From: Piezodorus guildinii | Lineage: Eukaryota > Arthropoda > Insecta > Hemiptera > Pentatomidae | Assembly: GCA_023052935.1 (NCBI GenBank) | Contig: CM041292.1 | Location: forward strand, 99,433,587-99,497,586 | Length of the DNA stretch: 64,000 nt | Direction: 5' to 3' | In this document: piece after piece, positions 838 through 63,730 of the stretch | Layout of the letters: every line of letters starts with the position of its first letter | How positions within the stretch are numbered: position 1 is the first letter of the stretch | Made by a program: the position numbers and the translations under genes | Notes under the pieces: generated by a model | What the model saw: the letters and a program-made list of their open reading frames with translations, nothing else | Told to the model about the DNA's origin: nothing | Database searches by the model: none

Positions 838-906
838 AATGATAATAAATAATTAGTTAGCTCCTTAATCTTCCGAAAACAGTTTAATACACATAAACAT
901 CAAAAC

Positions 907-930
907 GAGTCATCCTTCCCCATCATCAGG
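907..930 (-). ncRNA. Degenerate hammerhead-like motif, left arm of foldback 1
   Basis: On the minus strand a GAGTC (930-934) stands directly before CTGATGA (923-929), and GACTC (907-911) lies downstream, giving a perfect 5-bp helix I. The helix II 3' strand and the GAAA box are deleted, so this copy cannot be active. It is useful because it preserves the helix I pairing that has decayed in the other arm. Confidence 0.5.
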
Positions 931-1187
931 ACTCACTTTACTCTCTATCACATTATAATTTCATATTTCCGATAATTTGTAAATAAAATTTCTTCTAATA
1001 TTCTTCATATGGTTGAAACCACCCTCTATATATAAATTCATATTTATTATAAAATTTCATTCTTCCAATTAACCTATTTTTATTATGAATTTATATATGG
1101 AGGGTGGTTTCAACCATACGAAGAATATTAGAAGATATTTTATTGAAAAATTATCGGGAATATCAAAATATAATGTGATAGTAAAGT

Positions 1188-1227
1188 GAGCCCTGATGAT
1201 GGGGAAGGCCCTCGAAACATTAACTCG
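1188..1227 (+). ncRNA. Hammerhead-ribozyme-like motif, right arm of foldback 1
   Basis: CTGATGA lies at 1193-1199, followed by one unpaired T, then GGGG (1201-1204) pairing with CCTC (1210-1213, one G-T wobble), then GAAA at 1214-1217. GAG (1188-1190) can pair with CTC (1224-1226) as a remnant of helix I. The core residues of a hammerhead (CUGANGA and GAAA) are all present. The extra T between A9 and helix II recurs in every copy in the window and is a departure from the textbook fold. Activity is not shown. Confidence 0.55.
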
Positions 1228-1403
1228 TTTTGATGTTTATGTATAATACTCCTTTTCCACACACGGGCTCGCCTTAGTGGGATAATGACTTCTACTAGCA
1301 GTGTAAAAAGTCAATATTTTTATTTGAATAAATAAGTTATTAAAAAAAAATAAATAAACTGTTTTTAGAAGATTAAAGAACCAACTAATTATTTATTATC
1401 AAA

Positions 1404-1696
1404 TTAATTCTTCCATTTAACCTATATTTATCATAAATAAATGATATTTTTCTTCTTCTTATGATTTTTTTTAAACTCTAATTTAGTATCATGTGATGCT
1501 AAAATTTTCTTAAACTTTTTTCCTTTTACTTTATATTGTTTTATTTTAGGGATATTTATGTTCATCTATAATTTTATGTTAAATCTAACACAGATTTGTT
1601 ATTTCTCCTGATAAGTAAACATACGCCCAACCAATTAGTAAACATATTATGAAAGTATAGTTTAATACATGATATAAATGAAATATACATACATAC

Positions 1697-1697
<1 letters not shown>
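1404..1697. other. AT-rich stretch; includes a second copy of the foldback centre motif
   Basis: Positions 1405-1442 resemble the centre of foldback 1 (AATTCTTCCATTTAACCTA). The rest shows no feature that I can support. Confidence 0.4.

Positions 1698-1757
<60 letters not shown>
1698..1757. repeat. (TA)n microsatellite
   Basis: An uninterrupted AT dinucleotide run of about 58 bases. Confidence 0.95.
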
Positions 1758-1760
<3 letters not shown>

Positions 1761-3175: not shown

Positions 3176-3179
3176 TTTG

Positions 3180-3370
3180 TTTTTCGGACGAGGCGTCTGG
3201 AAAGAAGATGGCCACGAGACCTTCTTGTGTAGATTCACTACTAGATTGCTGCCAATGGACAGTTTTTCTTCATGTTTTTTTTCATGAGTATTATCATTTA
3301 GCAGCATAATTACTTGTTGTACTATAATAAACATTTGTACATTTTAATAAAATAAACAAAAAATAATTTT
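3180..3370 (+). mobile_element. 3' end fragment of a jockey-like LINE
   Basis: The segment starts with a GAGGCGTCTGGAAAGAAGATG box that matches the ORF2 terminus and 3' UTR of the large jockey-like element at 9695-13940 (read on its minus strand). It ends in AATAAA-type A-rich sequence near 3345-3362. Only the last codons and the 3' UTR remain, as expected for a strongly 5'-truncated retrotransposition product. Confidence 0.6.
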
Positions 3371-3716: not shown

Positions 3717-3747
<31 letters not shown>

Positions 3748-9853: not shown

Positions 9854-12507
9854 TCATCTTCTTTTCAGACGCCTCGGAGGATTATCAGGAATCGAACAGG
9901 AAGCCAGGGTTGAAACTAATTGGTTGGGGTGGGAAAGGAGTTTGTCATGGAAGGATTGATATCTGGTTCGGGCCAAATCAGCAACATATGGAACATTTAG
10001 GTCTTTATGAATGATTTTATTTGTGACAAAGTAAGGAGCGTTGAGGATTTTACGAAGGATTTTGGATTGTAAAGATTGGATACGGGAAGAATTCGATGGT
10101 TTAGTAGAGCCCCAAAGCTCAACTCTGTAAGTTCATATAGGCCTTATGATTTTCATGTAGATGAGCCTTTTGTAGTAAAGTGGAGGGTTTGAGCGTCTGT
10201 CTAGTAAGTGTTGAAGTAATCGAAAGCGGCGAGCAGTTTCTTGTCGTTTCAGACTTGTGTGTGGATTCCATGTGAGACGTTTGTCAAGGAGCAGTCCTAG
10301 GTAGGGGATCTGTACAACAGGGACAATTGGAATATTATGAAAGGATACTGGAGGACAGGATGTCATTGGCTTACGACGAAGGGTGAAGGTTATTTGGTGG
10401 GATTTGTTGGAATTTATTTTAATTCTCCAATTCTGACACCATATCTCAAGGTCTCTGATGTGGGTTTGAGAGGCTAAAGTTGGGTCGTTATTGACTGATA
10501 ACATGCAAGTGTCATCAGCATAAGTGGAAAGGAAAGTGTTAGGATTGGTTGGGATATCAGCTGTATATACTGTGTAGAGAATGGGTCCTAGGATACTGCC
10601 TTGAGGAACACCAGCGGACTGAGTAAAAAGAGATGAGTAGGACCCATTGTGATTTATTTTGAAGGATCTGTCAGTGAGGTAGATCTGGATGATAAGGAAG
10701 TATGTTGGAGGGAGGAATTTGCGGAGTTTGTACAGCAGTCCTGGATGCCAGACTCTATCAAATACTTGCTCTACGTCGAGAAAGGCTCCCGTGCAATACA
10801 ATCCGTGCCTCAAAGCAGAAGAGACTACATCCACCACGCGATGACACTGCTGGATAGCGGAATGGGATGTTCGGAAGCCAAACTGATGATCAGGGATAAT
10901 ATTATTGGAATCAAGGATAGGAAATATACGTTTTAGAAGGGGTTTTTGAAGAATTTTTCCTATGATACATAAAAGAGAGATGGGGCGGTAAGAGGATGGA
11001 TATTCGGGTGGCTTTTTGGGTTTATGGATCATTTTGACTATTGATAATTTCCAGGGGTTGGGAAAATGTGTTGTGCGGAGTACAGTATTATAAATATAGG
11101 TAAGAAATAGGATGGCTTTTCGAGGAAGAAGTTTTAAAATTTGGGATGTGATTAGATCGGGCCCAGGAGCTTTGCGGGAAGGGAGACAGTGAATAATGCT
11201 GGAAATTTCTAAGTGATGAAAACCTTTAGGTGGAAGGGACATTTGAAGAGGAATAGATAGTTCTGCTTCAATACATTCAAGGTGAATGGAATTAAGGATA
11301 TCAGTGTGTGGGATAAAAGTTATATGAAGGTGATGACCAAAAAGCTGGGCTTTTTCCTGGTCGGATCTTGTCCAGCTTTGGGATTCGGTAAGGAGTGGAT
11401 AGTTGCAGTCTTTGAACTTGAGCAGCTTCTTAGTGGTCGTCCATAGCGATTTGTCAGTAGTGGTGAGATTTTCTGTAAAACTAATTAAATTTTGAATTTT
11501 GAATTTTTTAATTTCTGATTTTAATTTGTTAGTAAGTTTAGTATAATAGGTTTTGTCGGATGGGTATCTAGTCCTATGCCACATTACTCTTGCTCGACGC
11601 TTTTCCCTTAATAAGATGCAAAGGTGAGGTGGCAAGTTAGTCTGCTGTGAATTGATAGTTGTCCTGTTTGATGTGTTATCTTTTATACTGGTCTGTATTG
11701 ATGTTGTCAGTTTTTTTATGGCTCTGTCAATGTCATTTGTTGTCTTCAGAGGAATTTTCAAGTCTAATCTATTTTCCAAATCATATCGAAATCTGTCCCA
11801 GTTGATTCGTCCTGTAATCAGTGTAGGAGGAGAGGGTCTTGGAGCGAAGTTTGAATTTAATAAAAACAAAACTGGACTATGATCGGATGAAAGGTTGATG
11901 ATTGCTTGGGAAGAGGAAATCTGAGAGGTAACAAATATATCTAGGATATCAGGATGTTTTTTCAGAGATGTAGGCAAATAGGTGGGGTGCATGGGTGAAA
12001 GAATAGAGTAAGAGTTGGAGTTTGAGACATGAGAGAGGATATATCCACGGGAGTTGGATGATCGACAACCCCATCGTTGGTGTTTAGCATTGTAGTCACC
12101 TCCAGCAATAAAGCGCGGTCCGAAGGAACGGAATAAGGATTCAAGATGGTTGTATGAAAGGACATTGCCAGGGCGACAGTATACAGCTGAGAATGTTAAA
12201 TGGTAAGGACGGGTTGTAATGACTACTGAGGTGCATTGAATGGCGTCAGTTGGAATAGAAGGAATAAAGGAATGGGGTAAGGATTTATGAATAAGAATGC
12301 AAGAACCGGCATGTGATGTATTGTCTGGATGGTCCGATCTCTAAGTAATTAATCACGTACGTAGAAATGTGATCGATGAGTGAAGTGAGTTTCAGTCAGA
12401 AGTGCAATATCTATGTGATTGTCATGTAGAAATATGTCGAGTTCGTCACGGTGGTTCAGTATGTCATTAGCATTCCACAAAACAATAGCTAGGGGCTTTA
12501 AACTCAT
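9854..12507 (-). pseudogene. Jockey-A ORF2: endonuclease and reverse transcriptase, disrupted
   Basis: The ATG at 12505-12507 opens an endonuclease domain (VLWNAND, then LLTETHF with the catalytic Glu). A frameshift follows near 12345-12360. The frame then runs through GGDYNAKHQRWG and LSSDHSP (the SDH motif). RT follows: YRPISLL, motif A FLDVEQVFDRVW, motif B AGVPQGSILGP and motif C YADD. From the Met at 11992 these are residues 404-415, 460-470 and 491-494 of a 619-residue open stretch. A TGA at 10130-10132 replaces the Trp of the conserved RPIWTY block, and the reading frame then continues to its natural stop at 9854-9856. The protein would nick DNA and copy the element RNA at the nick. 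Two lesions prevent this. Confidence 0.9.
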
Positions 12508-17769: not shown

Positions 17770-19875
17770 TTTCTTGCTGACCACACCCCCAACCAACATA
17801 TCCATCAAAATGTTTTTTATCAGGTTAACAAAATTATTTTAAACAAAAAATAACAATTGAAGGTTTTCCTGTGGTGACCTGCACACAATACATGGATACG
17901 AAGTACTTTAATACCTGTGTTATATATTTGGGGTCTTTGATAATACAGGCCAGGTAAAGCCAAATTTGCTTATATGAGGTTAGAAATTTGAATATCATCA
18001 ATGGAATAGTAAACAATTTTCAAGACTCGTATAGTTCTCAAGTTTTTCTATAACCTGAAGTTGTTCTAATATGTATCTTTTTATTTTATTATTGTTTTTT
18101 TTTGTTTATAACTGTTAGAAGATAATTTTTTCTAAACCTAGAATTATTACAAATCTAGGCTATTATATGTAAGAGGATCATCTAAGAAAAGTTTCAGCTT
18201 TATAGGCATTGTCATTTCTTAAATACCGCGATAACTTCAAAAGTGTGTGAACAGTGACTTTAATAAATAAATATATATTTTCAGTTTACGTGGCTTAGTG
18301 TATGCATTATCTGCTTTCGGTTTATCCTTCCTCAGGTATTGTTGTTATATAAACTAACTTTTCACAGTGTGGTTATGCGTATGAAGTGCACTGCTGTGTC
18401 TGGTAGGTGTATTTTTTTTAGAGCCTGGGATCTTTCGTAACGTGTGGAATATATCTTACTATTTCATTCGGTAGTTAATTTCATGTGTGTAAAATAAGTA
18501 TAAAAACATGATTTTTTAAATTCTTTATTTTTTTATTTACCTAATATCTTTGCTCCTAGTTGAATTTAGTTTTCTTACTTTGGTAGGGGCATTGCGATAT
18601 AATTGAAAGAGTGCAACCCTGCGTGCAGTAATGCACCCGGCTCACGGAGGAGGTGACAGCAGACAGTAGCTATTGAGCGGGTCCTGTCGGCAGTTGGAGG
18701 GTTAGCCGCTAGGGGCAGCACTCTACAGCCGAGGGTGGCAACCGCTAGGGGCGCCACCTTCTGCACTGCCCCCAGCACCATCTCTCCGACATACCGTAAA
18801 CTTCTACTACTTGTAAGTTTCCCGCTAAAAATAATTTTTCAAAAAAGCAATTTCTTTGGGCGCGATAATCTTGCAAACGTAGAAGTATCTTTGTAATAAT
18901 TAAATTCTGAGAAAGGTTGTAGATCGCCCTTCCTGTCTACAGACTAGCGATTACTAACTGCATTGCTTTTTTTTCGTCTATTGCTTGAATCACAACTGTC
19001 TATGATCGTAGGTAACTTGTAAATAAAATAAAAAAAGAGTATAACGGGCATAAGAACAAGGATTACCCATTTTCCAGTCTTATTTAAAATTATTCAAGTG
19101 TGTCTCTCATCCAACTCCTTCCCAGCCTTATACGGATGTAGTCAGGCATGCTTTTCTTGGCCATTATTTGAATGTATTTGGAAGTTACTGTACAAATTTG
19201 TTTGTGAATAATGATATGTTCTTTGACAATTGATATGTGTAAGTATATGTCTAGTGTTGTGTTACTTGAAAACTTGTGTAATTGTCCTGAAATATTTCTA
19301 ATTTTAAATATGAATATGTCTTTTATTTATTTTTTATTTTTCGCAACTCCAAATAATTCAGAAGCATAGGTCCAAATTGGTTTTAGTACATAAGTAAATG
19401 TTTCTTTATTCTATATTAAAAGAAAAAAGAGCTGTAAAATACAGTACTACATTTGAATACAAAATACTTTAGCTACAAGAGACGGTGCTGGAAATCGCTA
19501 ATGTATCGAAAAGAAGGACTGTCTACTGATGACGCCAATGTGGTACAAATAGAAAATATTTTGTGTATTCAAACAAATTTATTTATTTGAATTAAAACAT
19601 ATATTTATTAAATACAAATTTAAAAAAAATACTTCTATTGAGACCATAGATAACAAAATAATCATGGAAAAAGGCGACCTGCAAGAATAAGGAATGAGCG
19701 TACCGAGATCCACTACAGGCAATCTAGTTTATATCTCTGTGTGATTGATCCGTTGTAGAACGAAAAGTTAAAAAGCCTAGCACTGCAGTAAAACTTAGAC
19801 TTTGTTCAATTAAGAATTTCTTATACTGGTTAGAAATATTCAGAAGATATTTAAACGTTAATTTGTTAATTGTGT
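17770..19875. other. Non-coding region with a GC-rich island at 18590-18790
   Basis: Most is AT-rich. The island carries two copies of CCGCTAGGGGC, at 18706-18716 and 18742-18752, 36 bases apart. No open frame there has family features. I see no promoter or gene that I could defend. Confidence 0.4.
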
Positions 19876-29746: not shown

Positions 29747-31894
29747 TTATAGTTCCGGGAGCAGAGAACATTCTTTGACGAACCTAATCAGTGAACTAAC
29801 TGTTTCACTAGAGTCCTTCAAGCTCTCACTCAACGATCTAGCTAGGTTAAGTTTATCCATTTGTACCTGAAATTTGGGGCAGTTCTCAATTATGTGTTTT
29901 ATTGAGAGAGGCACTCTACACAAGTCACAAATTGGTACGGGCTGCCTGAGGATGAGATGGAGATGTGTGAGTCTGCTATGTCCTATGCGAAGTCTCGCCA
30001 AAGCAGTTTCCTCGCGGCGATTACTTCGCAATGATGTATTCCATGGATCAGGCGATTGCTTGATATTTCTTAATTTATTGGTGTTGTCAAGTTCCGACCA
30101 CATCTGTTCCCATGCCTGATATATTTTGACCTTAAGGTAATTTTTTACGTCTTCCTTGATGTAAGTTGGGTGGATTTGGACGTTTGACAATGCAGCTTCT
30201 TTCGCAGCCCGATCCGCTTCCTCATTGCCATCAATGCCTACGTGGGATGGAATCCACAAGAACACAAGTTCTTTTTTCAGTATTTTTAAATCTCCCACAT
30301 ATTTTCTGATCTTATTAATTAGTGGGTTATCAATGCAAATATTATGAAGGCTCTTAAGGGCGGATAGGGAATCAGTGCATATAACGAACTTTGACTCATC
30401 ACGTGACCTAATGAATTCAAGTGCATTTAATATTGCTACAAGTTCCGCAGTATATATGCTACTTAGGTTAGGCAGTTTGAATTTAAGGATACTTACGGGT
30501 GTAACAATAGACAGCCCAACTTGATCATTTATTTTGGAGCCGTCTGTGAATATTTTTGTGTAATCTGAATGATCACATATAATTTCATTGTATTTTTCTC
30601 TTAGTACATAGTGCGGTGTGTCAGTTTTGTTATACTTTGTCAGAGTTAAGTTTGTTCTTGGTACTGTTTGGTCCCATGGTGCTTCTATTGTTTCTGTTGT
30701 CTTATTGAGATGCATGTGAAGAAGTTCTTCGACGTAAGCCCTCGATCTTATTCCTAATGGTGCTGGTTTGCTCGGATTATTCTGATAAACTATTTTGTAC
30801 TTGGCTTGGTATATATATTTGTAGGCAGGGTTATCGGGTTGTGTGGCCAGTGATGAGATATAATTACATGCTAATTGCAGACGCCTGAACTTAAGTGGTG
30901 GAATTCCAGATTCTGCACACAGGCTAAGCACTGGACTTGTCCTGAAGGCACCAATAGCAATCCGGAGGCCTGTGTGGTGGATTGTGTCCAGTTGTGTTAA
31001 AATTCTTGATTTTGCTGACCCGTACACAGGACTGGCATGATCAAGTTTTGATTCGACGATACATTGGTATATCTGAAGTAATCTAGTTCGGTCAGATCCC
31101 CAACTTGTTCCTGCAAGGACTTTCAACACATTAAGTCGCTTCAGGCATTGTTCCTTTATGTTTTTTATATGTGAGCCCCATGTCAGCTTGGAGTCTAGGA
31201 TGAGTCCTAAGAATTTGCACTCATTGTGGAAGGATAGAGCCTGGTCATATAGCTTGATTTGAGGTGGAGGGCTTGGGTGTCTTCGCTTTGAAAATAGCAT
31301 ACACTTAGTTTTATTTGGTGAGAACCTGAGTCCTGATTGTTGTGACCAGGTTTGAAGTTGATCTAGTATGGATTGGACAAATGCTTTATCTCTTGTGGAA
31401 CCAGAGTAATTTATTAGGATCCCTAGATCATCTACAAAGAGGAAGGCTTTTAAGGATCTGTTGGTGAGAGCTTTATGGATATTACTAATTGCTATCATAA
31501 ACAATGTTCCACTTAAGACACTGCCCTGGGGAATACCATTTTCAATAAGTCTTTTGGAAGATACTTTGTCTGCAACTCTAACTTGGATGTACCTTGACAG
31601 GAGAAAGTTTTGAATAAATAAAGGAAGTGCACCTACCATGCCCCACTCATTTAGTTGTTTCAAGACTAGAGGGCGCCAAATCGTATCGAAAGCTTTTTCG
31701 ATATCGAAAAATATTCCTAGGCACTCTTTCTTGTTTATGAAAGAGTTTAGCACTTCTGCTTCAAGAGCTACCAGATGATCTAGTGTTGATCTTCCTTTTC
31801 GTTGTCCACACTGAATACTAGGTAGGCAATTATTGCTGTCAAGGAACCATAAGATGCGCTTGTTTACTATTTTTTTCCAGGACTTTACAGACAC
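29747..31894 (-). CDS. Reverse transcriptase with RNase H domain (I-like LINE ORF2, N-terminally truncated)
   Basis: The 715-residue frame starts inside the RT domain. Motif A FFDIEKAFD is at residues 62-70, motif B GIPQGSVLSG at 120-129 and motif C FVDD at 153-156 (Val where YADD/FADD has Ala). RNase H follows: FTDGS (449-453), TAELVAI with Glu484, CTDSLSAL with Asp508, WIPSHVGIDGN, then EADRAA with Asp561, so the D-E-D-D set is complete. A C-terminal C-X2-C, H-X4-C cluster is at 656-672. RT plus RNase H on one LINE protein points to the I group. The endonuclease and first RT motifs are lost by 5' truncation, so it is a dead copy with a clean frame. The Met at 31894 is just the first in frame. 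Confidence 0.9.
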   Translation of the reverse strand: MSVKSWKKIVNKRILWFLDSNNCLPSIQCGQRKGRSTLDHLVALEAEVLNSFINKKECLGIFFDIEKAFDTIWRPLVLKQLNEWGMVGALPLFIQNFLLSRYIQVRVADKVSSKRLIENGIPQGSVLSGTLFMIAISNIHKALTNRSLKAFLFVDDLGILINYSGSTRDKAFVQSILDQLQTWSQQSGLRFSPNKTKCMLFSKRRHPSPPPQIKLYDQALSFHNECKFLGLILDSKLTWGSHIKNIKEQCLKRLNVLKVLAGTSWGSDRTRLLQIYQCIVESKLDHASPVYGSAKSRILTQLDTIHHTGLRIAIGAFRTSPVLSLCAESGIPPLKFRRLQLACNYISSLATQPDNPAYKYIYQAKYKIVYQNNPSKPAPLGIRSRAYVEELLHMHLNKTTETIEAPWDQTVPRTNLTLTKYNKTDTPHYVLREKYNEIICDHSDYTKIFTDGSKINDQVGLSIVTPVSILKFKLPNLSSIYTAELVAILNALEFIRSRDESKFVICTDSLSALKSLHNICIDNPLINKIRKYVGDLKILKKELVFLWIPSHVGIDGNEEADRAAKEAALSNVQIHPTYIKEDVKNYLKVKIYQAWEQMWSELDNTNKLRNIKQSPDPWNTSLRSNRREETALARLRIGHSRLTHLHLILRQPVPICDLCRVPLSIKHIIENCPKFQVQMDKLNLARSLSESLKDSSETVSSLIRFVKECSLLPEL

Positions 31895-31959
31895 AACTTG
31901 TTAGAGAGACAGGTCTATACGCATTACTCCTTGTGTTTTATTTTATCATTTATTTTTAT

Positions 31960-39993: not shown

Positions 39994-40270
39994 TCAATTT
40001 TATTTATGATGAGACAGAAGTGGGAATGGTTGACTCTGGGAGTAAGTGAGAGAAGTTCGTTCAGGGTGCAGTCAAAAGAACACACAATTAAGACATAAAC
40101 TTAATAATCTGGTGTCGACGTTTCGGCCTAAATTATAGGCCTTCATCAGGGTGTTTCAAGGAGAGCGTCAGACAATGAAGCAACAAGGTCGGCACCAGTT
40201 TATTAAGTTTGTATCTTAATTGTGTGTTCTTTTGACTGCACCCTGAACGAACATTTCTCAATTTTATTTA
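39994..40270. mobile_element. Foldback element 2 with 13-bp TSD and a hammerhead-like motif
   Basis: TCAATTTTATTTA lies at 39994-40006 and 40258-40270. Inside, 40055-40119 pairs with 40188-40252 over about 65 bp (GTTCGTTCAGGGTGCAGTC against its complement at the far end). A hammerhead-like motif on the minus strand lies between the arms. The left flank of the insert (40007-40054) has no inverted partner. A TSD of this length suits target-primed reverse transcription better than cut-and-paste transposition. Confidence 0.75.
40112..40155 (-). ncRNA. Hammerhead-ribozyme-like motif in foldback 2
   Basis: On the minus strand: CTGATGA (40143-40149), one extra A (40142), helix II GGCCTA/TAGGCC of six perfect pairs (40136-40141 with 40125-40130), GAAA (40121-40124), then CGTC and GAC. 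The palindromic ACGT after GAA is the two-pair helix III of minimal hammerheads, and the C after it is the expected cleavage residue. Only the first pair of helix I (G-C) can form in this copy. Confidence 0.55.
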
Positions 40271-40284
40271 TCTTTAAATATAAA

Positions 40285-42984: not shown

Positions 42985-43110
42985 ATAAAAAAGTTGGTTG
43001 AGGGTGCGGTCATATAAATAAAACACACTAATAAAGTGAGGTTATTTTTGAGTGCCGACGTTTCGGCCTACATCTTGGCCTTCATTATGGCTGACTCTGA
43101 GAGAGCATCT
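42985..43110 (-). ncRNA. Solo foldback arm with a hammerhead-like motif
   Basis: It is homologous to one arm of foldback 2 (GGTTGAGGGTGCGGTCATAT). On the minus strand: ATAATGA (43082-43088, two changes from CTGATGA), an extra A, GGCC/GGCC helix II, GAAA, CGTC. Helix I is well kept: GCC (43089-43091) with GGC (43054-43056), a CA bulge, then GAGT (43094-43097) with ACTC (43050-43053). The bulged helix I resembles natural hammerheads. The core changes should abolish cleavage. Confidence 0.5.
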
Positions 43111-47204: not shown

Positions 47205-47240
47205 CTGTTGAAGACGTGGGTCGAAACACCGGCCGTGAAT
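47205..47240 (+). ncRNA. Hammerhead-like motif, diverged
   Basis: CTGTTGA (47205-47211, one change in the core), one extra A, GAC (47213-47215) pairing with GTC (47220-47222), GAAA (47223-47226). It lies within 47060-47250, a repeat of which only this copy is in the window. Helix I is not convincing. Confidence 0.35.
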
Positions 47241-47915: not shown

Positions 47916-48611
47916 TTATATATGAAATATATAGTAAGGGAAAATATTGCGATCTTGGAAATTGTCCAGATTTTAACGGAAATACACGTTTTATGGTCCC
48001 CAAGTTCAAATAACTAAACTCAAATAAACAAAAATTCTGTGTGTCCGTGTTTGTGTTTGGTAAGAGTAGCATGAAATCGAAAAGTAATACAACACTGAAA
48101 TTTCATATTTAATACAACTATAAGCTCGAGATATTACAACAATTTTTCATCAATTAGGGCGAATTATGCTGTGCGTTTTGCACCTTCTTACGATTTTATC
48201 AATAACAGTTCAAACTATTTTGATTAAACTCGCTATATCAATGTAAAATTTAACGGGCTTTAATGTCATAGGTTTCATTCTGTATGAAATAGTTTGATGA
48301 TGGTTAGATGCCGATATTTAAAATTTTCTTCTTGTAAATTACCTTTAATTTAGTAGATTCGAGAAACATAACCATATCATATAGTTAGTTTTGATAAAAA
48401 ACGTTGAAATACATAATTTGAACGAATTCGTAATTTAACTGAAGAAGAAAAGTTAAAGAAACACGTGTTGTTTTAATGCAATTTTTATGTTTTTGAGCAT
48501 AGGCGCTTTAATATAAAATTATTATAGGAACATTTAAAAAAGCACATACTACCTTCCATTCATCATCTAATCACTTTATTTCATAAGTCTTTTAACATTT
48601 TTTTTCATCCT

Positions 48612-48649
48612 AGTCTACGTTTCGGGGTTGTTTCCCCATTTTCAAGACT
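48612..48649 (-). ncRNA. Hammerhead-like motif, left arm of foldback 3
   Basis: On the minus strand: helix I AGTC (48646-48649) with GACT (48612-48615), core TTGAAAA, extra T, helix II GGGG/CCCC (perfect), GAAA, CGTA. The core differs from CTGANGA at the first C and at the G, so this copy is probably inactive, but all helices pair. Confidence 0.5.
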
Positions 48650-48738
48650 TATTCCTTGTGTATAATTATAATTATAATGGAAACAGTGAGCCAATATAGA
48701 CAAGTAGTGAAGGATGAAAAATGTGTAGAAACGGAATA

Positions 48739-48776
48739 AGTCTTGAAAATGGGGAAACAATCCCGAAACGTAGACT
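48739..48776 (+). ncRNA. Hammerhead-like motif, right arm of foldback 3
   Basis: The same motif as in the left arm: AGTC (48739-48742) with GACT (48773-48776), TTGAAAA, extra T, GGGG/TCCC (one wobble), GAAA (48765-48768), CGTA. Confidence 0.5.
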
Positions 48777-49215
48777 AGGATGAAAAAAAAATGTTAAAAG
48801 ACTTATGAAATAAAGTGATTAGATGATGAATGGAAGGTAGTATGTGCTTTTTTAAATGTTCCAATTAAGAAAACTTCCAAAATTAAAAAAGAAAAGAAAC
48901 TTAATTTATTATATACCGCTGGAAAGCTATTGATTTTAGAAAAAATATTCTCTTATACACAAAATTGTAAAAGCTAATGGAGAGAAATAGAAGGCCGAAA
49001 CAATTAAATGATTGTTGCAGATAATTATAATAGATTATTTAATAATACACATGTTTTTATCGAAACTCAACTTAATGAATTCCTTTTTACCTTTTCATAC
49101 CTATATATTTCATCTCTAACTGTATTTAAAATCCTTAAATTGACTTTAAAAACGGAATTAAGTGAAAGAAGTGTGTTGCGCACACTAGATTTTTTGTATT
49201 GCTTCCTAAGATAAT

Positions 49216-53470: not shown

Positions 53471-54093
53471 CTGTATTTGAAATATATAGTAAAGGAAAGC
53501 ATTGGGATAGTCATAATTTTTTTATTCCGGTTTTAAACGGAAATACACATTTTAAGGTCCCTTGTGTCGCACGATAAAGTATGTGTGTGGTAAGTCTAGC
53601 ACAAAAATATTAAATCGTAACTGAAATATCATATCTAAAACAACTATATACCCGAGATGTAAAAACTACTTTTTCATCACAATTGGACAACTAGACTTTA
53701 TTCTATGCAAAAAGTTAATTTCTATATTGGTATATTTTTGAGCGATTTTCGTCATAAATGATTTAATTTGTTTTTCATGCGGACATTCGAAAAGTCAAAT
53801 GCATTCAACCTCTTTCTACTCGTGAAGTAAAAAGGTTTAACTGCTAATTATAGTTTTTGGCGTGGTTTCAACCACGGAATATCATCGCTTAGCAGTAAGA
53901 AGCACGGTCGAACAGCAGCTTGAAGATCTCTGTCTGAAGCCGAAGACTCCTCCTTTGCTCCGAATACTTCTCTCCTTGTCTAGCTTAGCATCTGTACGCT
54001 GTTGGGGTCCACACTTATCCCGTGGACCCAACCCCATCAGCCAAGGTAGCGTCGCGCTGACAAGGCTTTACGAGGTACCTGGCAACAGAAGAT

Positions 54094-55252
54094 ATGGCTG
54101 CAGGACCAGCTGGCCCTAGCGATATGGACGTTGCCCCGACCGAAGCCAGGGGTGAAAAAGGAACCCTCACCGATAGCGAAGGTTTTATACAAGTGACGAA
54201 AAAGAATGCTCTAAAACCCCGCCCGGTCCCTGTGCCGCCACCGGTGTCAACATCAAATAGGTTTGAGGTAATCACACCAAAGAAAAAGCTCCCTCCCCCC
54301 ATCATCATTTCGCCACCCATATCCTTTACGTCCTTGAAGGAAGAATTATTCCAGATAGGCATACAAGAATTTAAGACGAACTCTTCTCCCAAGGAGACGA
54401 GATTATATCTGACAAATGATCTCGATCACGACATAGCTGTGAAGTTGCTACGGCACAATGAAAAAGTGCTGTTCCACTCCTACGCCCCTCGTGGAACCAA
54501 AAAATCCAAAAAATTTGTCATTCAAGGGTTCGATCTCGACCATCCTATAGAAGAAATAACAGAGGAGCTGAAGAACAGATTGTCTGGTTTCAGGTTAGCC
54601 AGGAGGCTAACCCGAAGAAACGAAGCTGGAGTGGCTTATGAGATTGAAGGAGTACAAGTCATTACCGACCCTTCAGTCAAGATTGAAGACATAAGAGCCC
54701 TCCGCAGCATCGGGAGGGTAATTATAAGGGTTTACCCCTTTAAAAAAGATGGGGCCCCTGCCCAGTGCAGGAACTGTCAGCAGTTTGGGCACATTATGAA
54801 GTATTGTGGCCGCATAGCCGCCTGCCCGTGGTGTGGGGGAACTCACGCCAACCAAAACTGCCCTCGTCCGACCGCGGCCAAATGCGCCAACTGTGGAGGA
54901 AGCCACCCTGCCTCTTCAAAGGACTGCCCACGAAGACTGGAGCTAATGAAGAAAAGAAGAAACGAAGCCACTACAAGAGCTGCTGCTTCTTCAAGACAGC
55001 CCAGCAGGGAGGAACCACAGCGCCAGCACAGCAGCAGCAGTACCAGCGCCAGGACCTGCCCCACCACCACAACCTACTGAAGACGCACCAATGACAGGTA
55101 CCCCTCTATCCCAATCACCGGGCCAGAGTGGTACATTAGCCGACGTATTAGCGGCTAATGCAAAACTCAGCTCCCAGATCACCCAGCTGATGACGTCGAT
55201 AAACAGAATAATGGAGATGATGATGAAGGTGATAAGTAAACATTATGACTGA
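54094..55252 (+). pseudogene. Jockey-B ORF1: gag-like protein with three CCHC knuckles, one frameshift
   Basis: From the ATG at 54094 the frame runs 328 codons. A disordered Pro-rich start (1-70) is followed by the folded domain that precedes zinc fingers in jockey gag proteins (about 75-215, with FVIQGFDLDHPIEEI). Three knuckles follow: CRNCQQFGHIMKYC (225-238), CPWCGGTHANQNC (244-256) and CANCGGSHPASSKDC (264-278). The Ser/Gln-rich tail then stops at 55080. The true end lies in the +1 frame (TGTPLSQSPGQSGTLADVLA to ISKHYD, stop 55250-55252), so one indel occurred near 55000-55050. The protein would bind and package element RNA. The stop overlaps the ORF2 ATG by 8 nt. Confidence 0.88.
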
Positions 55253-57894
55253 ACATCTCGTCATCAACTACAATATCCGAGGCCTACGTCAGAAGCAGGC
55301 TGAAGTTAAACTCCTCCTACAGCAGTATCGGCCATCGGTAGTGGCGCTGACGGACACCGTTCTTCCTGCATCTGAGTGGTTGTATATCCAGGGTTACATC
55401 GCGTACCGGGAGATGTGCAATCCGGGGACTGATGAGAGTGTCGTCATCTTGGTTAGAAGAGATGTTCCTTCACGGTTAATACCCAACCCGGTTGCTTCTA
55501 CCAAGGGTACTCACATAGTCACAGTCGATGTTCACCTGAAACATCGGTACACTTTCTGCTGTGTCTATAGGAGACCCAAGGCTATAGCAACGTCTATGAA
55601 GCTACTGCTGCAACACGCCCAGGGTAGAAGTCGATTTGTCGTCCTTGGGGACTTCAACGCTCGACATACAGCCTGCATGATGGGTACTTACATCTCCAAG
55701 ACCAGGATGGCGGTCTTTCACCCTGGGGTGCACACCTTCAGGCATGCGGCCCGACCTTGCTGGACATCCACACTAGACCTACTCCTGACCAGAGATCAGC
55801 ACACCGTCACGGGGTGCCTCGCACTCCCGTACGGGCCGTCTGACCATCGGCCTGTGATTTACACCTTCGAGGGAACGCCCCCCACACCTCCGGCGAGCAA
55901 GTACCTCTTTCACAAGGCCGACTGGAAGGGCTATAAGGCTAGTGTCGATAATACACTACCCAAGATACAGCCTCTGAGATCTGAAGCCGAGGTGGATGGC
56001 GCTGTGGCCGTCATCACCACTACCATACAGAAGTCAGCGAACTATAATATCCCTAGGTTCAGCCCCCAGCCGATCGCTCTCAGAAAGCCTCCGAAGCACC
56101 TACTCGCCTTGGTAGCCCAAAGGAACAACCTGAGGAACGTCTTTTACCGCACGGGTGATTACGGCTTGAAACCGGCCATCAATGCGATGACCAGGCAGAT
56201 AGCCAGCCTCATGCGTGCCTGGAAGACCGCCCTCTGGCACGAACAGCTCCGGAGGACTCATGACGACCAGAAGCAATTCTGGAAACTCATCAGGACTCAT
56301 GTCGCCAAGGAGAGGACTGTGCACCTGACGTCTGAAAGCGATCTGTTGACCCCGGTTGAACAGGCTGAACTCCTGGCTACCGACTATGAAGCGAGGGAAG
56401 AGGCTCGTATGAGTGCTACTCCTGGACTTCCAGAAGGGAGACCTCCGTCCCCCAATGAGAAGCCCATCCACTTCACCTTCAAGCAGCTTGAGTCGGTGCT
56501 ACGACGTACTAAGGGCAATAAGTCCTCTGGGAAGGACGATATTCCTTATGTCCTGTTGAAGATGCTCCCTAGGAGGGGTAAAACCTTCTTATTGAACATT
56601 TTTAACACGTGCATCCGGTTATCGTATTTTCCTAAGGCTTGGAAAGAAGCGATCGTAGTGCCGCTACTCAAACCGGGGAAGAGTGGAGATTCAACGGAAC
56701 ACAATCGCCCGATCAGTCTTCTCTCGCACATGAGTAAGAACTTAGAAAGGCTAGTTCACCACCATCTGATGAAGCACTGTACGGAGGAGAACATCATCCC
56801 ACCTGAACAGACAGGATTCCAACGAGGGGTAGCCTGTGAACACCATCTGGCGAAGTTGCAGGCCCACACCATGGAGCGGATGAGGAAGAACAACGATGCC
56901 ACAGCACTAATCTCCTCGGACTGCACATAGGCCTTCGACTGTGTGTCTCACACTCTATTACTCCGCCGTCTGGAGGAGTTCAAGTTCCCTGCCTCCCTAT
57001 GCCGATTGATCCGAAGCTATCTTAGTCAAAGATCTTTCGTTGTAAGGGTCGGCGGGAGCCTGTCGAATCCACACGATACCATCTGCGGGGTACCTCAAGG
57101 GTCTGTGCTGGGGCCACTATTATTTGTCGTTTTCACGGCACCGGTGGTCTCATTAAAGGATCCGGGAGCAACAGTAGCAGCCTATGCGGACGACATCGCC
57201 ATTTACTCCACCAGCATGAGCGCCACCAAGGCACGTGACCCAGCTCAGAAAGCAGCAAACGTCATAGTTGGGGAATTGAAGAAGATCGGAATCAGGGTCA
57301 ACCCAGCCAAAACGGACGCCATCATCTTGTCCTTCCAGAAGGGGAAGAAGAAGTTACCCACCGAGTTTGAGATAGACACTTCCTCTCTCCAACTCAATTC
57401 TTTACCTAGGTGTGACCTTGGACCGACACCTGACATTCTCCAGCCATGTACGGGAAAGAATCAAGCTGGCCCGCAGGAAGTCCCATAGACTCTACCACCT
57501 ACTCATCTCGCCGCAGCTCTCACTGCGACTCAAGTTGCAAATCTACAAGGCCGTTATCAGACCGACTCTACTCCATGGTGCGCCCCTGCTCCGCCACCTC
57601 TACCAGTCCACGATCAAAAGGCTGCAGAGTTATCAGAACTCCGTCCTAAGGATGATAGCCAGAGCAACCACACTCCAGCGGGCGAGAAATGCCACCATCC
57701 ACGAGGAACTCCATCTTCCCTCGGTGCCAGAGTTCATCAGCAGGAGGCACGTCAAGTTCTTTGACGGGTTAAAGGCTTGTGCGAACCCTCTCTTCAGGGA
57801 CGTAGTTCCACCACCTGCGCCTGGAAGGTGGCAAGGCTCTCTCCCCCTGGTCGACGTGGTCGCCCTGGGAAGGGGTATGGACTCTGCAGTCTGA
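55245..57894 (+). pseudogene. Jockey-B ORF2: endonuclease and reverse transcriptase, two lesions
   Basis: The first 561 codons hold the apurinic-like endonuclease: NIRGLRQKQAEV, LTDTVL where jockey-A has LTET (Asp replaces the catalytic Glu), GDFNARH at 135-141 and SDH at 199-201. The start of RT follows (FTFKQLESVLRRTKGNKSSG, RPISLLSHMSK). A TAG at 56928-56930 replaces Gln in motif A, and AFDCVSHTLLL continues in frame. Motif B is CGVPQGSVLGPLLF and motif C AYADDIAIY. A one-base loss near 57395-57405 moves the end (YLGVTLDRHLTF, IRPTLLHGAPLLRHLY) to another frame, ending at 57894. Apart from these lesions the frame is clean, so the insertion is fairly recent. Confidence 0.9.
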
Positions 57895-58895: not shown

Positions 58896-60684
58896 AATAA
58901 AACTTGTTCTTCTTCTTCTTTCTCTTCGACCCATTTGCCTTTCAGCGTGGGCGAGCTCCCAGCCATTGGTACCAACTGTCTCTGTTCCTGGCAAGGTTTC
59001 TAATCTCGCCCAGAGTTTTTCCTCTACGCATCCCTATTCGCTCCATGTGGGTGATATAGGAGGTCCTAGGGCGTCCTCTAGGTCTTCGTCCTAAGGGCCT
59101 TACCTCCATTGTTTTAATTGGGTTCCGGTGGTGGTCCATTCGGCAGACATGCCCGTACCATCCCAATTGCTTCTTGTCTAGGACTTCCAGAACAGAGCAT
59201 ACATTAAGCTCTTCTCTGATCCTTTCATTTCGGACACAGTCTCTCCGTGTCTTCCCCACAATTCTCCTTAGAAACTTCATTTCTGAGGCAGTGATGCGAC
59301 TTAGTAGCCTTTCATTCATAATCCAGCTCTCTGCTCCATAGAGAAGCACTGGTAGAAAGATGGACTTGAACAGGTGTAACTTCACGTTCCGTGCTATTTC
59401 TCTTTTTCCGATAACCGTGTTGCAGATATGGTAATAGACGGAATTAGCTTTGGAAATTCTACTTGAGATTTCAGAGTCCAATTTCCCAGATCTACTGATC
59501 ACTGTGCCTAGATACGTGAAATCTGTCACCACCTCCATCAATTCTCCACCACAGGAGATCTGTACATCTTCTTGAGCTCTACCAACTTGAAGAACCTTAC
59601 TTTTTCTGGAATTGATAGTCATTCCCTTTCTCTTCAGTTCCTCATTCCACTCCGTCACTGCCTGCTGAAGCTGCTCTGGGGATTCCGCTATAAGGACTAT
59701 ATCGTCAGCAAACAAGAGGAACTGTATAACAACAGGATACAGGTTCCATTGGCCCATGTGCATTCTGGCTGTGCGTCTTTTGCAAATTGAGGCAATCTCA
59801 TCTATGTAAACAATAAACAAAAGGGGACTTAGCGAATCGCCCTGTTTTACTCCCTTTTCCATCCTAAACACTTTCGATTCTTGCCCATTTAAGCGCACTA
59901 CACCCTTTGGCTCTTGATATGTTGACTTTATAGCCCTCAGCAACTTTTGAGGGATGTTCTTTGCCCTCAAGGCTTCCCAAATTTCTTTCCTAGGTACCGA
60001 ATCGAATGCCGCCTTCAAGTCTAAGAACGCCAGATAGACGTTTCGGCCATGGTCCCAGGACTTCTCGATCACGTTCCGCAGGGTGAAAATCTGATCCTGA
60101 GTTTGTCTGTTGGGTCTAAATGCACTCTGTTCTTCCTGCAGAATAGGCTCCACTATTGGCCTCAACCTGCTCTCGAGAACAGAGGTATACACTTTATAGA
60201 TCACGGGAGACAGGCAAATAGGTCTGTAGTTCGAGCAGTCACTTTGACTTCCTTTCTTGTAGATGGGGACTATAACATTGTACTCCCATTCCTGAGGGAT
60301 TTTTTTCATCTTCCCAAACTCTTTGGAAGAATTTTTGTAATGTCCCTATCAACTCTGGTCCTCCGTATTTAAGAAATTCTGGGACTATGTTGTCTCGCCC
60401 TGCTGCTTTTCCTATCTTCATCTTCGCAATGGCCCTTTCAACCTCTTCCTCCTCAATCGGGTCATTTCCTTCATCTTCGATTTCGGATTCCCTGTTGAGA
60501 TGATCGATTTCTTCTTGTTGGTTGCCCTCGAACTGTCTTGCATAGTGCCTACGCCAGGTCTCCAAGACCTCTTTCTCCTCAGATACCACCTCTCCTTTTT
60601 CATTCTTTATGTTTCTTATTTGTTTGGGCTTTCTGCCTCTGAGGGTTTTTATTTTCCTCCATAACTTCCAAAATAAAACTTGTT
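58896..60684 (-). mobile_element. 5'-truncated LINE with (GAA)n tail and 13-bp TSD
   Basis: AATAAAACTTGTT lies at 58896-58908 and 60672-60684. The insert is 58909-60671, read on the minus strand. It has the RT region of ORF2, a short 3' UTR and a tail of GAA units (CTT repeats at 58909-58920 on the plus strand). It is a young insertion with a single frame lesion. Confidence 0.9.
58942..60671 (-). pseudogene. LINE reverse transcriptase (RTE/L1-like clade uncertain), one frameshift
   Basis: The 5' part (60671-60310) reads RGRKPKQIRNIKNEKGEVV, VLETWRRHYARQFEGN, VERAIAKMKIGKAAGRDNIV. An indel in an A run near 60303 shifts to the 455-codon frame. That frame has VPIYKKGSQSDCSNYRPICL, FRPNRQTQDQIF, motif A FLDLKAAFDSV (95-105), motif B GVKQGDSLSPLLF (153-165), motif C FADD (200-203), then FTYLGTVIS, LLYGAESW and a Gly-Arg-Pro-Arg-rich end. 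All palm catalytic residues are present. The endonuclease is lost by 5' truncation. The decayed piece at 7105-7480 is a relative. Confidence 0.85.
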
Positions 60685-60739
60685 TAAAAGTAAAATAAAA
60701 AATAAATTTATACTCCTAGACAATGGCATTTTTTTTTAC

Positions 60740-60935
60740 ACCTCTGGAGATTATAAGGAATTAAAAAGGGCAGGGAGTTTTAAAACGATAGGGCATGGAG
60801 AGGAAGGATGGAGTTTGTCATAGAAGGAACGGTATCTTGTTCGGGCTAAAACCGCAAAATTATGGATGATTTTTAGCTTAACGAAGAACGTTGAGGATTT
60901 TGGATTGTGAATATTTGAAGTCCTGATAATCATTT
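60740..60935 (-). pseudogene. Jockey-like ORF2 C-terminal scrap
   Basis: On the minus strand the frame reads VLARTRYRSFYDKLHPSSP, close to LARTRYQSFHDKLLSHP near the end of jockey-A ORF2. Outer parts are decayed. Confidence 0.6.
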
Positions 60936-61852
60936 TGATAAAATAAAAGTTAAACCATATATATTTTTTTTTTAATCCAATCCTGTGTTTTCAAGTTAGA
61001 CATACGTTATAGGAAGATGGTTTAATATGGTTGAAAAGGAATGAGTAGAATATTAAGAGTGAATCAGATATCTATCATTGAGAAAAATAGACAAATATAA
61101 ACTTTTTGACATCTGAACTAAGAAAATATGTAGTATACGAGAACCATTGCCTATTGAATCGATTAATACCATTCAAGATAAATAGGTTGAATAAATTCTT
61201 TATTTATAGTTACATTTTATCAATATTTTTTTTTTAATCGCTATATTTAAAATTCGTGCCAGGATAATTATTCCTTTTTTGATATTTAAAGAGCTTAAAA
61301 AAGCTTTGATATTTAATCAGAACCAATAAAGATGAAGTATCAATTAAAAAGGCAAGCCGAAATTGATACCAAATCCATTATAGGAATTTACTGCAGAACG
61401 ACTTTCCGTACGAGTCGACAGTTATAACATAATTAGCATTTTATTAAGTTTTCGAATAAAAATAGAAATCCGAGAAATGAGGAAAACGGTCGTGTTGTTA
61501 ACAAGGTATCATTGAAAAGTGAACAGCTACCAGGACTTCAGGAAAATACAAAATTAAATTTATAATTTAATTGTTTTATTAAAACAATGGAAATGTCGCC
61601 GGTGTGATTAATTGTTTCCTGATCCATTGTAAAAATAGAACTATGCTTGGAAACATTGATTTAAGGAAGTCGTCACATGTCTTCCATTTATCAGTTATTT
61701 GGAACTTCTAAACAAAATCTATCTCTATTTTTCAGTAATAATATCAGTAGTAGTAGCAAATAAACTCATGTCGTAAAAATATAACTAAAGATAGAGGCTG
61801 TTTGTTGTGGACCATCGCTCCACTTAAAAGGGATAAATAAATAAGTATGGGT
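60936..61852. other. Non-coding AT-rich region
   Basis: No feature recognised. Confidence 0.45.
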
Positions 61853-62172
61853 AAGGACGTACTGGGGGAGCCCGTGGCTGAGTGGCTAGCGCGCTAGTCT
61901 CTCATGCTACAGGTTCTGAGTTCGAATCCAAGTCCCGGCGGGGCTTTTATAAGGATTTAAAAAAATGTGGATTCACTCACAACCTCTCCCCCGGGTATGT
62001 GAGACCCGTCAGCCAAAGGGTGGCCACTCACAAAATTAGTCGTAGGGAGTGATGACCCTGCACTAAAAAATTGCATCGTGAAACGTGAGTGTAAATTCGC
62101 AAAAGTTTACACCGCGAGGCCCAGGGCCTACACGGCCTGTCGCGCCCCTGGAAGAAGAAGAAGAAGGACGTA
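61853..62172 (+). mobile_element. SINE-B, complete copy with 9-bp TSD and (GAA)n tail
   Basis: AAGGACGTA lies at 61853-61861 and 62164-62172. The head (61868-61939) resembles a tRNA gene: GTGGCTGAGTGGCTAGCGCG as A box region and GAGTTCGAATCC as B box, both pol III promoter parts. The body includes CCGGGTATGTGAGACCCGTC and GTAGGGAGTGATGACC. The tail is GGAAGAAGAAGAAG. The tRNA part lacks a cloverleaf that I would accept as a working tRNA. It shares its GAA-type tail with the LINE 1.2 kb to the left. Confidence 0.8.
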
Positions 62173-62284
62173 AGCCCGATTTTCATAAGGGAGAGTGCAA
62201 GTAGAGTAAAACTTAAAGTAGAGTTGAAGGTGGTTCAAAAAATAACACATTGCTTCTAAAATTGTCTGTATGCATATGAAATGA

Positions 62285-62540
62285 AAATTAATAAATAGTA
62301 GGTCCCTAATCCTTCCATAAACAGTTTATCTCAGATAAACTTTAAAACGAGTAAATATTTCGGGGCCCTTCTCCCATCATCAAGACACACTTTACTTTTT
62401 TATCACATTATAGATCAATACCTCCATATACAAATTCATAATAAAAATAGATTAATTGGAAGAATGTAATTTGATATTATTTATTAATGAATTACATTAG
62501 TCCAATTAGCATGTTTTTATTATGAAAATTAAAGGCATGG
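62285..62540 (-). repeat. Solo arm related to foldback 1, with a hammerhead-like motif
   Basis: It shares the order of boxes of foldback 1: TAATCCTTCCATAAACAGTT, AAAACGAGTAAATATTTCGG, CCCATCATCAAGACACACTT, then the centre GATTAATTGGAAGAATG. On the minus strand the motif is TTGATGA (62376-62382), extra T (62376/62375 region), GGG/CCC helix II and GAAA (62358-62361). Helix I is mostly lost. Confidence 0.55.
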
Positions 62541-63539
62541 TTGGATTGTCTAAAACAATTTATAACATTTCATTTTATACTAATACATTTATTTATTTTT
62601 TTATTTTATTTTTTCCGACCTGAAAATTGATCCTAAATCGTCTTGAAAGGTCCCCTCATATAAGATACGTATTTTGAAATGAAAATTCTTTAGCTACATT
62701 TTCGTGATCGTGTGTTTTTCAAATTAAGGTATTAAGTTAATCTATTGTATGGAAATATATTACCGTTAAGGACTTTAGGATATGAAACAAACCATCATAA
62801 CCAAATAATTAATATTTTCAATAATGTTCTAGTGAAAACTAGTTATTTAAGGACTCAAGTCTTGTAACCTTGTATTACCGACGACGTTGCTTAAAAAAAA
62901 AAAGTTCTTACCCGGGTATTTTTTACGTTTTCCTAAACTTGCTCAGTTCCCGAGTCATGTTGTTTTCCCCAACGACTTTTTCTTACGACGGACCCTCTTA
63001 ACGACTCTTTCTTCCAGAAGGGATGAGAAACTCATTTCACTTTGAGAACGGCATCAAGTAGGTTTAGGCCGAAATATTCAGAGAAAAAGGATAGGACTGT
63101 GAAAGGAGAAATATTTCGTAATGATGTATCCGGTATCAAAGAAGAAATACTAAAAACTGTATGTAATCATTTGATAGTCCAATGGGGTACCCTTCTAATC
63201 TATATTCTAGCAAACAATTTTTTTTTTATTAATTGATAAATCGAAATAGATAATAAAATTATTTTTAAATATTGTATTTCACCAATTCACTTGATGTATT
63301 CAATAATATAATTGTAAATTTCAATAAATATTATTTAAAAAATTAAATAGAATTGCATATTTAGTGTACAGCAGTAATATTGTAAGATAAATCATTATTT
63401 TTTTCGGAACAATCTGTGGATATAATACATTGAATGTTCTATTAATAAACTATTAATTGTAATTTATTCCATATTTTCATCATATCTCAATTTTTAATTT
63501 TTGTTTTTGTATGGTAACAAGGAAATTTTTTTTTATTAT
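62541..63539. other. Non-coding region
   Basis: No supported gene. 62880-63060 is less AT-rich. An open frame at 63042-63236 has no family features. Confidence 0.4.
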
Positions 63540-63730
63540 TACATTTGAGGATGTATAGTCGGCTGGAGAAATTATCTTTGTTAGAAATAATCAGTCTTTT
63601 TTAATAACCAGTTTATGCTTGACATGGCTCAGTAATGCATTGATGATGGCTCACAAGTTTGAGCCGAAACTTCGACAAAATGAAAATATTATAAAAGACT
63701 GACTCCCGATTATTTCGACCTACTATTATT
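63540..63730 (+). repeat. Foldback-like repeat with the best helix II among the hammerhead-like motifs
   Basis: Short arms (63584-63606 against 63686-63716, AATAATCAGTC with GACTGACTCCCGATTATT) enclose the motif. The left flank matches 2165-2250 in reverse. Confidence 0.55.
63640..63675 (+). ncRNA. Hammerhead-like motif with 6-bp helix II
   Basis: TTGATGA (63640-63646, C to T at the first core base), one extra T, GGCTCA (63648-63653) pairing perfectly with TGAGCC (63660-63665), GAAA (63666-63669), then CTTCGAC. Helix I does not pair convincingly here. Confidence 0.45.

Follow-up and report, generated by a model that had tools for sequence, protein, structure and literature searches.

Eight of nine dispersed sites in the window, the whole 64,000-nucleotide stretch of Piezodorus guildinii DNA analysed here, are very probably minimal type I hammerhead motifs belonging to Penelope-like elements (PLEs) and to short non-coding elements with the same mode of insertion. 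The initial annotation had ascribed one common layout to all nine sites, and a covariance model (R2) recovered eight of them with E-values from 1.7e-10 to 0.005 (Table 1); R2 was built from 26 rows, all outside the window, picked by eye from 54 with chance-like and near-identical rows dropped. The window search gave 31 matches at E <= 10, the best beyond the eight sites being 19834-19866(+) at E 0.04, and the ninth site, 47205-47240, was absent from these 31. With a core of CTGTTGA and with GAAAC followed by ACC rather than GUH, this site was dropped as a hammerhead and is most likely a chance match.

Hammerhead-like motifs in the window and the genome

A scan for the exact core (CTGANGA, a one-base spacer, a stem of at least 4 bp and GAAAC) gave three matches in the window, whereas 30 simulated sequences averaged 0.1, with the full exact layout present at 1193(+) and 40149(-) only. 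The third match, at 13574(-), precedes GAAAAT and resembles a chance match. When one core mismatch was allowed there were nine matches in the window against a simulated mean of 1.6 and maximum of 4. The core C3 U4 G5 A6 N7 G8 A9 with GAAA is present at family level in A, B, D and others and is kept in two window copies, while the core or box is altered at the 43050, 62347 and 63633 sites; that most window copies are decayed counts against the preferred reading. A search of the flanks of the 43050..43095 motif found no surrounding inverted repeat.

Table 1. Positions of elements, target duplications and hammerhead motifs in the window
Feature	Position	Strand	Basis
Target duplication AAATAAATGA, left copy (family A)	829..838		Position counted on sequence
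Family A element, head-to-head arms, left end short, right long	839..1434		Ends and arms; 210 genome matches
Family A hammerhead motif with a deletion of GAAA and the 3' half of helix II	905..936	-	R2 19.6 bits, E 0.005
Family A hammerhead motif, intact core, GUU -> AUU	1186..1228	+	R2 30.9 bits, E 3.4e-6
Target duplication AAATAAATGA, right copy (family A)	1435..1444		Position counted on sequence
Target duplication ATAAATAAAATTGA, one copy (family B)	39994..40007		Position counted on sequence
Family B foldback, one end short, other long	40008..40257	-	Arms and ends; 83 genome matches
Family B hammerhead motif, intact core, weakened helix I	40110..40156	-	R2 38.7 bits, E 2.2e-8
Target duplication ATAAATAAAATTGA, other copy (family B)	40258..40271		Position counted on sequence
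B-like solo motif, helices I and II retained, core ATAATGA	43050..43095	-	R2 30.6 bits, E 4.2e-6
Family C: truncated PLE 3' ends, head-to-head pair, left short, right long	48524..48897, right limit approximate		Arms, PLE comparison
Family C hammerhead motif, U3/A8 core	48609..48652	-	R2 46.3 bits, E 1.7e-10
Family C hammerhead motif, U3/A8 core	48736..48779	+	R2 44.1 bits, E 7e-10
Second, diverged family A copy	about 62282-62560		Similarity to 838-1089
Decayed family A motif in the second, diverged copy	62347..62390	-	R2 20.3 bits, E 0.0031
Family D motif, core (TTGATGA) and box (GAAACTT) both decayed	63633..63680	+	R2 21.9 bits, E 0.0011

In the 26-row alignment the core positions outside the helices are conserved across families, and the motif families have in common helices I and II with covariation, the core and a GAAACGUH box. 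Helix II does not stand directly on A9 and G12, with a T or A following A9 in this alignment, and this extra base, common to all the families seen, counts against the preferred reading. With a two-pair helix III and this additional base ahead of helix II, the sites are, as judged from sequence, minimal type I hammerhead motifs of PLEs. In keeping with this, such hammerheads (Cervera and De la Pena 2014; Lunse, Weinberg and Breaker 2017), as described in papers citing these studies, have a tiny helix III with no loop contacts described and occur as thousands of scattered copies, both in animal genomes at large and within PLE pseudo-LTRs. The Poseidon PLE of Anolis carolinensis likewise has hammerhead stems I and II, with C3 and G8 ahead of the ATG that opens stem II (PMC11167929). 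That layout, with the ATG at the start of stem II, also fits an extra base after A9 (PMC11167929).

Genome-wide, the motif pattern (N7 restricted to A or T) had 18,680 exact matches in 1.2 Gb and the reversed pattern had 0. Helices I and II covaried above background (0.502 against 0.202 when shuffled and <= 0.177 when slid), with nine of ten helix pairs showing change on both sides, bearing out the proposal of compensatory change in the hairpin; in a separate 12-row comparison of the helices the rows were placed by hand and L066 and L049 represent one family. The further claim that the flanks pair as helix I held in part: helix I covaries, but the long arms of family B are the foldback itself, its helix I beside the core comprising 3 bp (GCC/GGC) in most copies and being broken in the window copy. 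The Rfam hammerhead models that had been put forward as a check missed every site, with no family passing at gathering thresholds in the window and no hammerhead family appearing there at E <= 10, a result that counts against the preferred reading. A genome search with RF00163 gave 0 matches, which says little because RF00163 matched in none of the control genomes.

Insertion architecture of the elements

Full-length PLEs and the foldbacks share one architecture, in which two copies lie head to head with their 3' ends outward. The arms are mostly one short and one ~27-45 nt longer, often with a target duplication of ~8-15 bp that varies in length. Orientation was tallied for PLE GIY-YIG and hammerhead-motif copies alone. 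GIY-YIG neighbours <= 12 kb apart were 13 '-+', 0 '+-', 5 '++' and 3 '--', while among the first 100 matches listed same-family motif neighbours <= 3 kb apart were 18 '-+', 2 '++' and 0 '+-' and U3/A8 motif neighbours were 20 '-+', 1 '++', 1 '--' and 0 '+-'. A further orientation tally, taken without the window copy (which had been counted twice), gave 18 '-+', 7 '++', 8 '--' and 1 '+-'. The mirror-image repeats around the motifs appear to be the mark of the PLE insertion mode.

Families A and B are short and without a reading frame, and both have the head-to-head order, the tail on one arm and the target duplication of PLEs. In family A, where 21 of 30 loci were retained as non-overlapping, 13/20 copies had one short and one long end, 2/20 had two short ends and 5/20 were unclear (P = 0.004, calculated after the data were seen and on 15/20 copies). 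In the window element the right arm has ~105 bp of additional sequence. Flank words of at least 8 bases were shared in 7/20 family A copies against 25/380, and in 6/13 family B copies against 10/156. One short and one long end were found in 12 of 13 family B copies, with the long end on either arm, and the copies compared have a single fixed internal junction. No matching partner PLE for A or B was found among the GIY-YIG loci listed, and A, B and D were linked to no specific PLE protein, a point against the preferred reading.

Penelope families of Adineta vaga similarly have inverted pLTRs, mostly head to head, with 8-10-bp target duplications and an optional 31-bp tail on one inverted pLTR (PMC3846280, in the portion available), although hammerheads have 0 occurrences in that portion and the present genome differs in its short foldbacks at very high copy number. 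In the Anolis PLE, priming takes place on both strands at two start sites with the tail between them (PMC11167929), as would be the case here. The PLE endonuclease would make a staggered cut in the target, after which both target 3' ends would prime reverse transcription of the element RNA, starting downstream of the hammerhead at two neighbouring sites. Head-to-head joining of the resulting pair of cDNAs would follow, such that truncated pairs give short foldbacks. An alternative put forward for rotifer PLEs, in which self-priming on antisense RNA or cDNA produces the palindromes, is rather unlikely here. This was offered for the head-to-head order in the available portion of PMC3846280 and would suit those copies with very short centres, but self-priming alone would not explain why each arm ends at one or other of two positions resembling start sites, and in Anolis the PLE protein both cleaves and extends the two strands (PMC11167929).

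Autonomous PLEs and the hammerhead core

The GIY-YIG genome search gave matches above the cut-off, including the L066 region. The family C motif was found in 21 of 30 GIY-YIG loci (L036-L065) and in L067 and L068, located in the pLTR flanking an RT/GIY-YIG frame, and the window family C is a truncated copy from this autonomous PLE family. In the L066 and L067 frames, YIDD and GIY-YIG-like segments were recognised by eye and RVT_1 was present in homologues, although a Pfam hmmscan of the two frames found neither RVT_1 nor GIY-YIG, which counts against the assignment. The covariation, the family C motif at GIY-YIG loci and the PLE-type palindromes together favour the initial annotation in its view that these are transposon-borne hammerhead motifs in an inverted-repeat setting.

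Both family C window copies have the core TTGAAAA. Family C and its relatives have U3/A8 instead of the paired C3/G8 of the core, a difference from the minimal type I PLE hammerheads as citing papers describe them. The case for compensation is the 4,043 genome matches to U3/A8 against 702 to U3/G8, counts that are of copies rather than events and that come from patterns accepting any N7, unlike the 18,680-match pattern. One double change inherited by a single amplified lineage would yield an equal U3/A8 count. Since the C3-G8 pair has been exchanged for a U3-A8 pair, catalytic capacity may persist in family C. Natural variants in which U3 and A8 replace C3 and G8 by covariation are reported to be active in vitro, with several examples in the available part of PMC3088659 against 4,043 matches in the present genome.

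A different core is found in the L066-type PLE, which has been copied recently. L066 comprises two head-to-head copies, 99.97% identical over 3,479 bp, with motifs near both outer ends, and the L066-type core is CAGAAGA (U4 changed to A4) in 9/11 rows; the 28 locus rows used for the family C and L066-type cores include overlapping loci. A PLE frame starting at the motif's ATG found no support in L066, where by arithmetic the ATG is out of frame with the long frame, unlike Anolis Poseidon. In vitro, Anolis elements with a mutated hammerhead show normal insertion, and cleavage by the motif requires added protein (PMC11167929). Because the L066-type U4 mutant was copied recently and these Anolis mutants insert normally, cleavage may be dispensable for insertion. 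These observations, the protein-dependent cutting in Anolis included, would also suit a fold kept for a non-catalytic role, such as PLE protein binding beside the reverse-transcription start, with self-cleavage residual. That reading is nevertheless judged rather improbable, as the U3/A8 family retains a core pair of known catalytic role and the core outside the helices is conserved across families.

The link of family C to the 3' end of a GIY-YIG/RT element, together with the same order in full-length PLEs, also counts against a transposase-driven origin, in which these would be foldback or MITE-like DNA transposons and the hammerhead-like motif a conserved but incidental piece of their terminal inverted repeat. 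Such an origin is very unlikely: the long palindromes, the high copy number and the one fixed junction of the family B copies compared are in its favour, but the arm ends differ by ~27-45 nt with the long end on either arm, the target duplications vary in length, and the ends of families A and B vary where fixed terminal inverted repeats would be expected. Chance matches in AT-rich DNA fit 47205-47240 and the exact-core match at 13574 but are a negligible explanation overall, being refuted for the other eight sites by the 18,680 matches against 0 reversed, the R2 E-values and the covariation.

Retrozyme-like elements and implications for PLE biology

Metazoan non-LTR retrozymes are short tandem non-coding units of ~150-450 bp, low in GC, with a type I hammerhead per unit (PMC7229834, in the part available). 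Family A also consists of tandem non-coding units in this size range with a type I hammerhead, 11/15 same-strand spacings lying between 202 and 246 nt, and by its sequence appears retrozyme-like, being short, non-coding, repeated in tandem at ~240 nt and bounded by PLE-type ends. It differs from the retrozymes in its minimal hammerhead, head-to-head order and PLE-type ends. The hammerhead would probably release single units from tandem transcripts and would do so as a dimer, given that a single copy forms a helix III of just two pairs; a unit-length, perhaps circular, family A RNA would account for the ~240-nt tandems.

A fuller account can be proposed tentatively, in which family A RNAs are inserted by PLE machinery via both-strand priming at two start sites, a large PLE lineage relies on a U3-A8 hammerhead and a young L066-type PLE lacks the canonical core, with catalysis retained wherever RNA of unit length is required and the autonomous element able to do without it.

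PLEs have been proposed as the movers of animal retrozymes (PMC7229834 and PMC7761336, in the parts available), and the PLE-type ends on the retrozyme-like family A support this proposal and make it testable by helper-dependent insertion assays. The pairing of one short with one long arm is a constraint on models of PLE integration. With its natural copies running to thousands, the U3/A8 lineage allows the weight of the catalytic core pair to be read from sequence, the U4-mutant PLE serving as a contrast.

Fold, covariation and abundance of the motif

At the family level the motif is, by its predicted fold, a minimal type I hammerhead in which helix I abuts the core directly (see table), A9 is followed by one additional T or A, helix II, GAAAC and then mostly GUH, and helix III consists of AC/GU without a loop, in keeping with the two-pair helix III described in the initial annotation. 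In an alignment of 26 rows, picked by eye out of 54, pairs were formed in 83.1% of cells compared with 63.3% for shuffled and at most 49.2% for slid partners, both sides had changed in 9 of 10 pairs (shuffled mean 6.6, reached by 12 of 500 shuffles) and covariation stood at 0.502, compared with 0.202 after shuffling and no more than 0.177 for slid partners, the rows being kin such that these figures do not count independent events. The excess of covariation over both controls bears out the compensatory helix changes proposed earlier. Likewise, in 12 rows placed by hand the first three helix I pairs were formed in 34/36 cells, where shuffling gave 22.1, and those of helix II in 35/36, where it gave 28.1.

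Helix I of the motif by family, with window positions of elements and target duplications (L066 and L050 are loci elsewhere in the genome)
Family	Element in window	Helix I	Target duplication	Duplicated sequence
A	839-1434	GAGTC/GACTC	829-838 and 1435-1444	AAATAAATGA
B	40008-40257	GCC/GGC	39994-40007 and 40258-40271	ATAAATAAAATTGA
C	48524-~48897	AGTC/GACT		
D	63633-63680 (motif)	GCC/GGC		
L066 type		GCAC/GTGC		
L050		CTT/AAG		

The window is part of a 222-Mb contig (C1) in a 1.2-Gb genome. A covariance model trained on copies from outside the window recovered eight of the nine sites first credited with the shared layout (E 1.7e-10 to 0.005), with 47205-47240 absent from its window match list, while the Rfam models suggested as a check recovered no hammerhead in the window. 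Three exact cores with a one-base spacer and at least 4 bp of stem lay in the window, compared with a mean of 0.1 across 30 simulated sequences. Genome-wide, the pattern CTGAWGAWGG-N8..20-CCGAAACGTH gave 18,680 exact matches and its reversed reading none; the first 100 matches listed, classed by helix II and loop sequence, comprised 46 D, 30 B-like, 11 B, seven L066-type, three A and three others. A borderline covariance-model match at 19834-19866(+) (E 0.04) is perhaps one more decayed copy.

Penelope-like elements bearing the motif

A GIY-YIG search gave 103 matches in the genome, with frames of up to 961 aa. L066 comprises two copies of one Penelope-like element (PLE) head to head, 99.97% identical across 3,479 bp, with motifs near each outer end and one internally. 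Precomputed RVT_1, PF28514 and PF26215 matches were present on four homologues, RVT_1 being checked in two of them, and hmmscan found neither RVT_1 nor GIY-YIG in the frames of L066 and a further locus, L067. Among the loci listed, the arms of the window family C foldback match DNA beside GIY-YIG at ~84-94%, and the family C motif was present in 21 of the 30 GIY-YIG loci L036-L065 as well as in L067 and L068. These loci and the motif-bearing L066 pair uphold the suggested Penelope-type origin, and on sequence grounds the window motifs belong to a known kind, the PLE hammerheads. Long open frames resembling LINE-type reverse transcriptases by eye lie in the window at 10133-12340(-), 29747-31900(-), 54061-57894(+) and 58942-60715(-).

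Arm orientation, end lengths and insertion

Neighbouring GIY-YIG matches up to 12 kb apart comprised 13 '-+', five '++', three '--' and no '+-' pairs. Among the first 100 pattern matches listed, same-family motif neighbours within 3 kb were 18 '-+', two '++' and no '+-', with one '--' and one '+-' between different families; the first 100 listed motifs with U and A at core positions 3 and 8 (U3/A8) gave 20 '-+', one '++', one '--' and no '+-'. Family A arms up to 700 bp apart, counting the window copy once, gave 18 '-+', seven '++', eight '--' and one '+-'. This order places 3' ends outward.

The arms have two end lengths. L066 has its long end on the minus arm and its short end on the plus arm, L068 has the opposite, and window family C is short on the left and long on the right. 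One short and one long end occurred in 12 of 13 family B copies (long left in three, right in nine; one scored same), while 20 two-ended family A clusters included 13 short plus long, two both short and five unclear. The two flanks shared words of at least 8 bases in 6/13 family B copies against 10/156 mismatched pairs, and in 7/20 family A clusters against 25/380; window family C showed no clear target duplication.

The protein of an Anolis PLE cuts and extends both strands of the target, and it begins reverse transcription at two adjacent sites within the ORF; the stretch between these sites forms the genomic tail (PMC11167929). Two cDNAs with 3' ends outward would result if both target strands served as primers, one short and one long end if each strand used a different start site, and the target duplication if the cut were staggered. 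Passages on rotifer PLEs describe head-to-head order, one tailed inverted pLTR and 8-10-bp duplications, and the authors proposed self-priming on an antisense template (PMC3846280). The family B copies L069-L088 have one fixed internal junction in common, the left arm stopping near GAAAC. This suggests that the palindrome is itself inherited, which both-strand priming at each insertion leaves unexplained.

Retrozyme-like tandems and altered cores

Same-strand family A arms were spaced by 202-246 nt in 11/15 cases, and family A is read from its sequence as a non-coding unit in short tandem arrays, every unit carrying one hammerhead. Metazoan retrozymes, in the passages of PMC7229834, are likewise short non-coding tandem units each with a hammerhead, whereas family A combines a minimal hammerhead with PLE-type ends. 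PLEs have been proposed as candidate movers of retrozymes (passages of PMC7229834 and PMC7761336); no earlier report of PLE-type ends in retrozymes was found among the titles, abstract openings and passages covered from the CC-licensed literature. In the window, the right arm of family A holds a ~105-bp stretch (~1249-1352) missing from the left, perhaps a later insertion, and its palindrome centre at 987-1138(-) matches the Rfam family WsnRNA46 below threshold (37.6 bits, cut-off 65.3), probably a by-product of long pairing. On the minus strand of L031, at ~5307, a motif whose helix I is GCAC/GTGC follows a possible coding sequence and lies ~240 nt, one spacing, upstream of two same-strand family A units.

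The family C core is TTGAAAA, with U replacing C3 and A replacing G8 jointly in 28/28 locus rows, some from overlapping loci, and in both window rows. In passages of PMC3088659, C3 pairs with G8 in the active fold, and several natural hammerheads have U3/A8, such ribozymes being active in vitro. The U3/A8 motif had 4,043 matches genome-wide, with A, G or T at N7 among the 100 listed; U3/G8 had 702, the 100 listed being spread across many families. The L066-type core is CAGAAGA in 9/11 rows, three being from L066 and two (L042, L043) from the same region; the others are CTGAAGA (L049) and CTGATGA (L031). L066, L045, L046 and L047 are near-identical PLE copies with this U4-changed core, L049 being a relative.

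The Anolis hammerhead cleaved solely with added protein and its mutants inserted normally in vitro (PMC11167929), so cleavage may not be needed. Worth following are the lineage with U3/A8 and the occurrence of PLE-type ends on a retrozyme-like tandem, and the U4-changed L066-type copies may offer a natural test of the need for the ribozyme.
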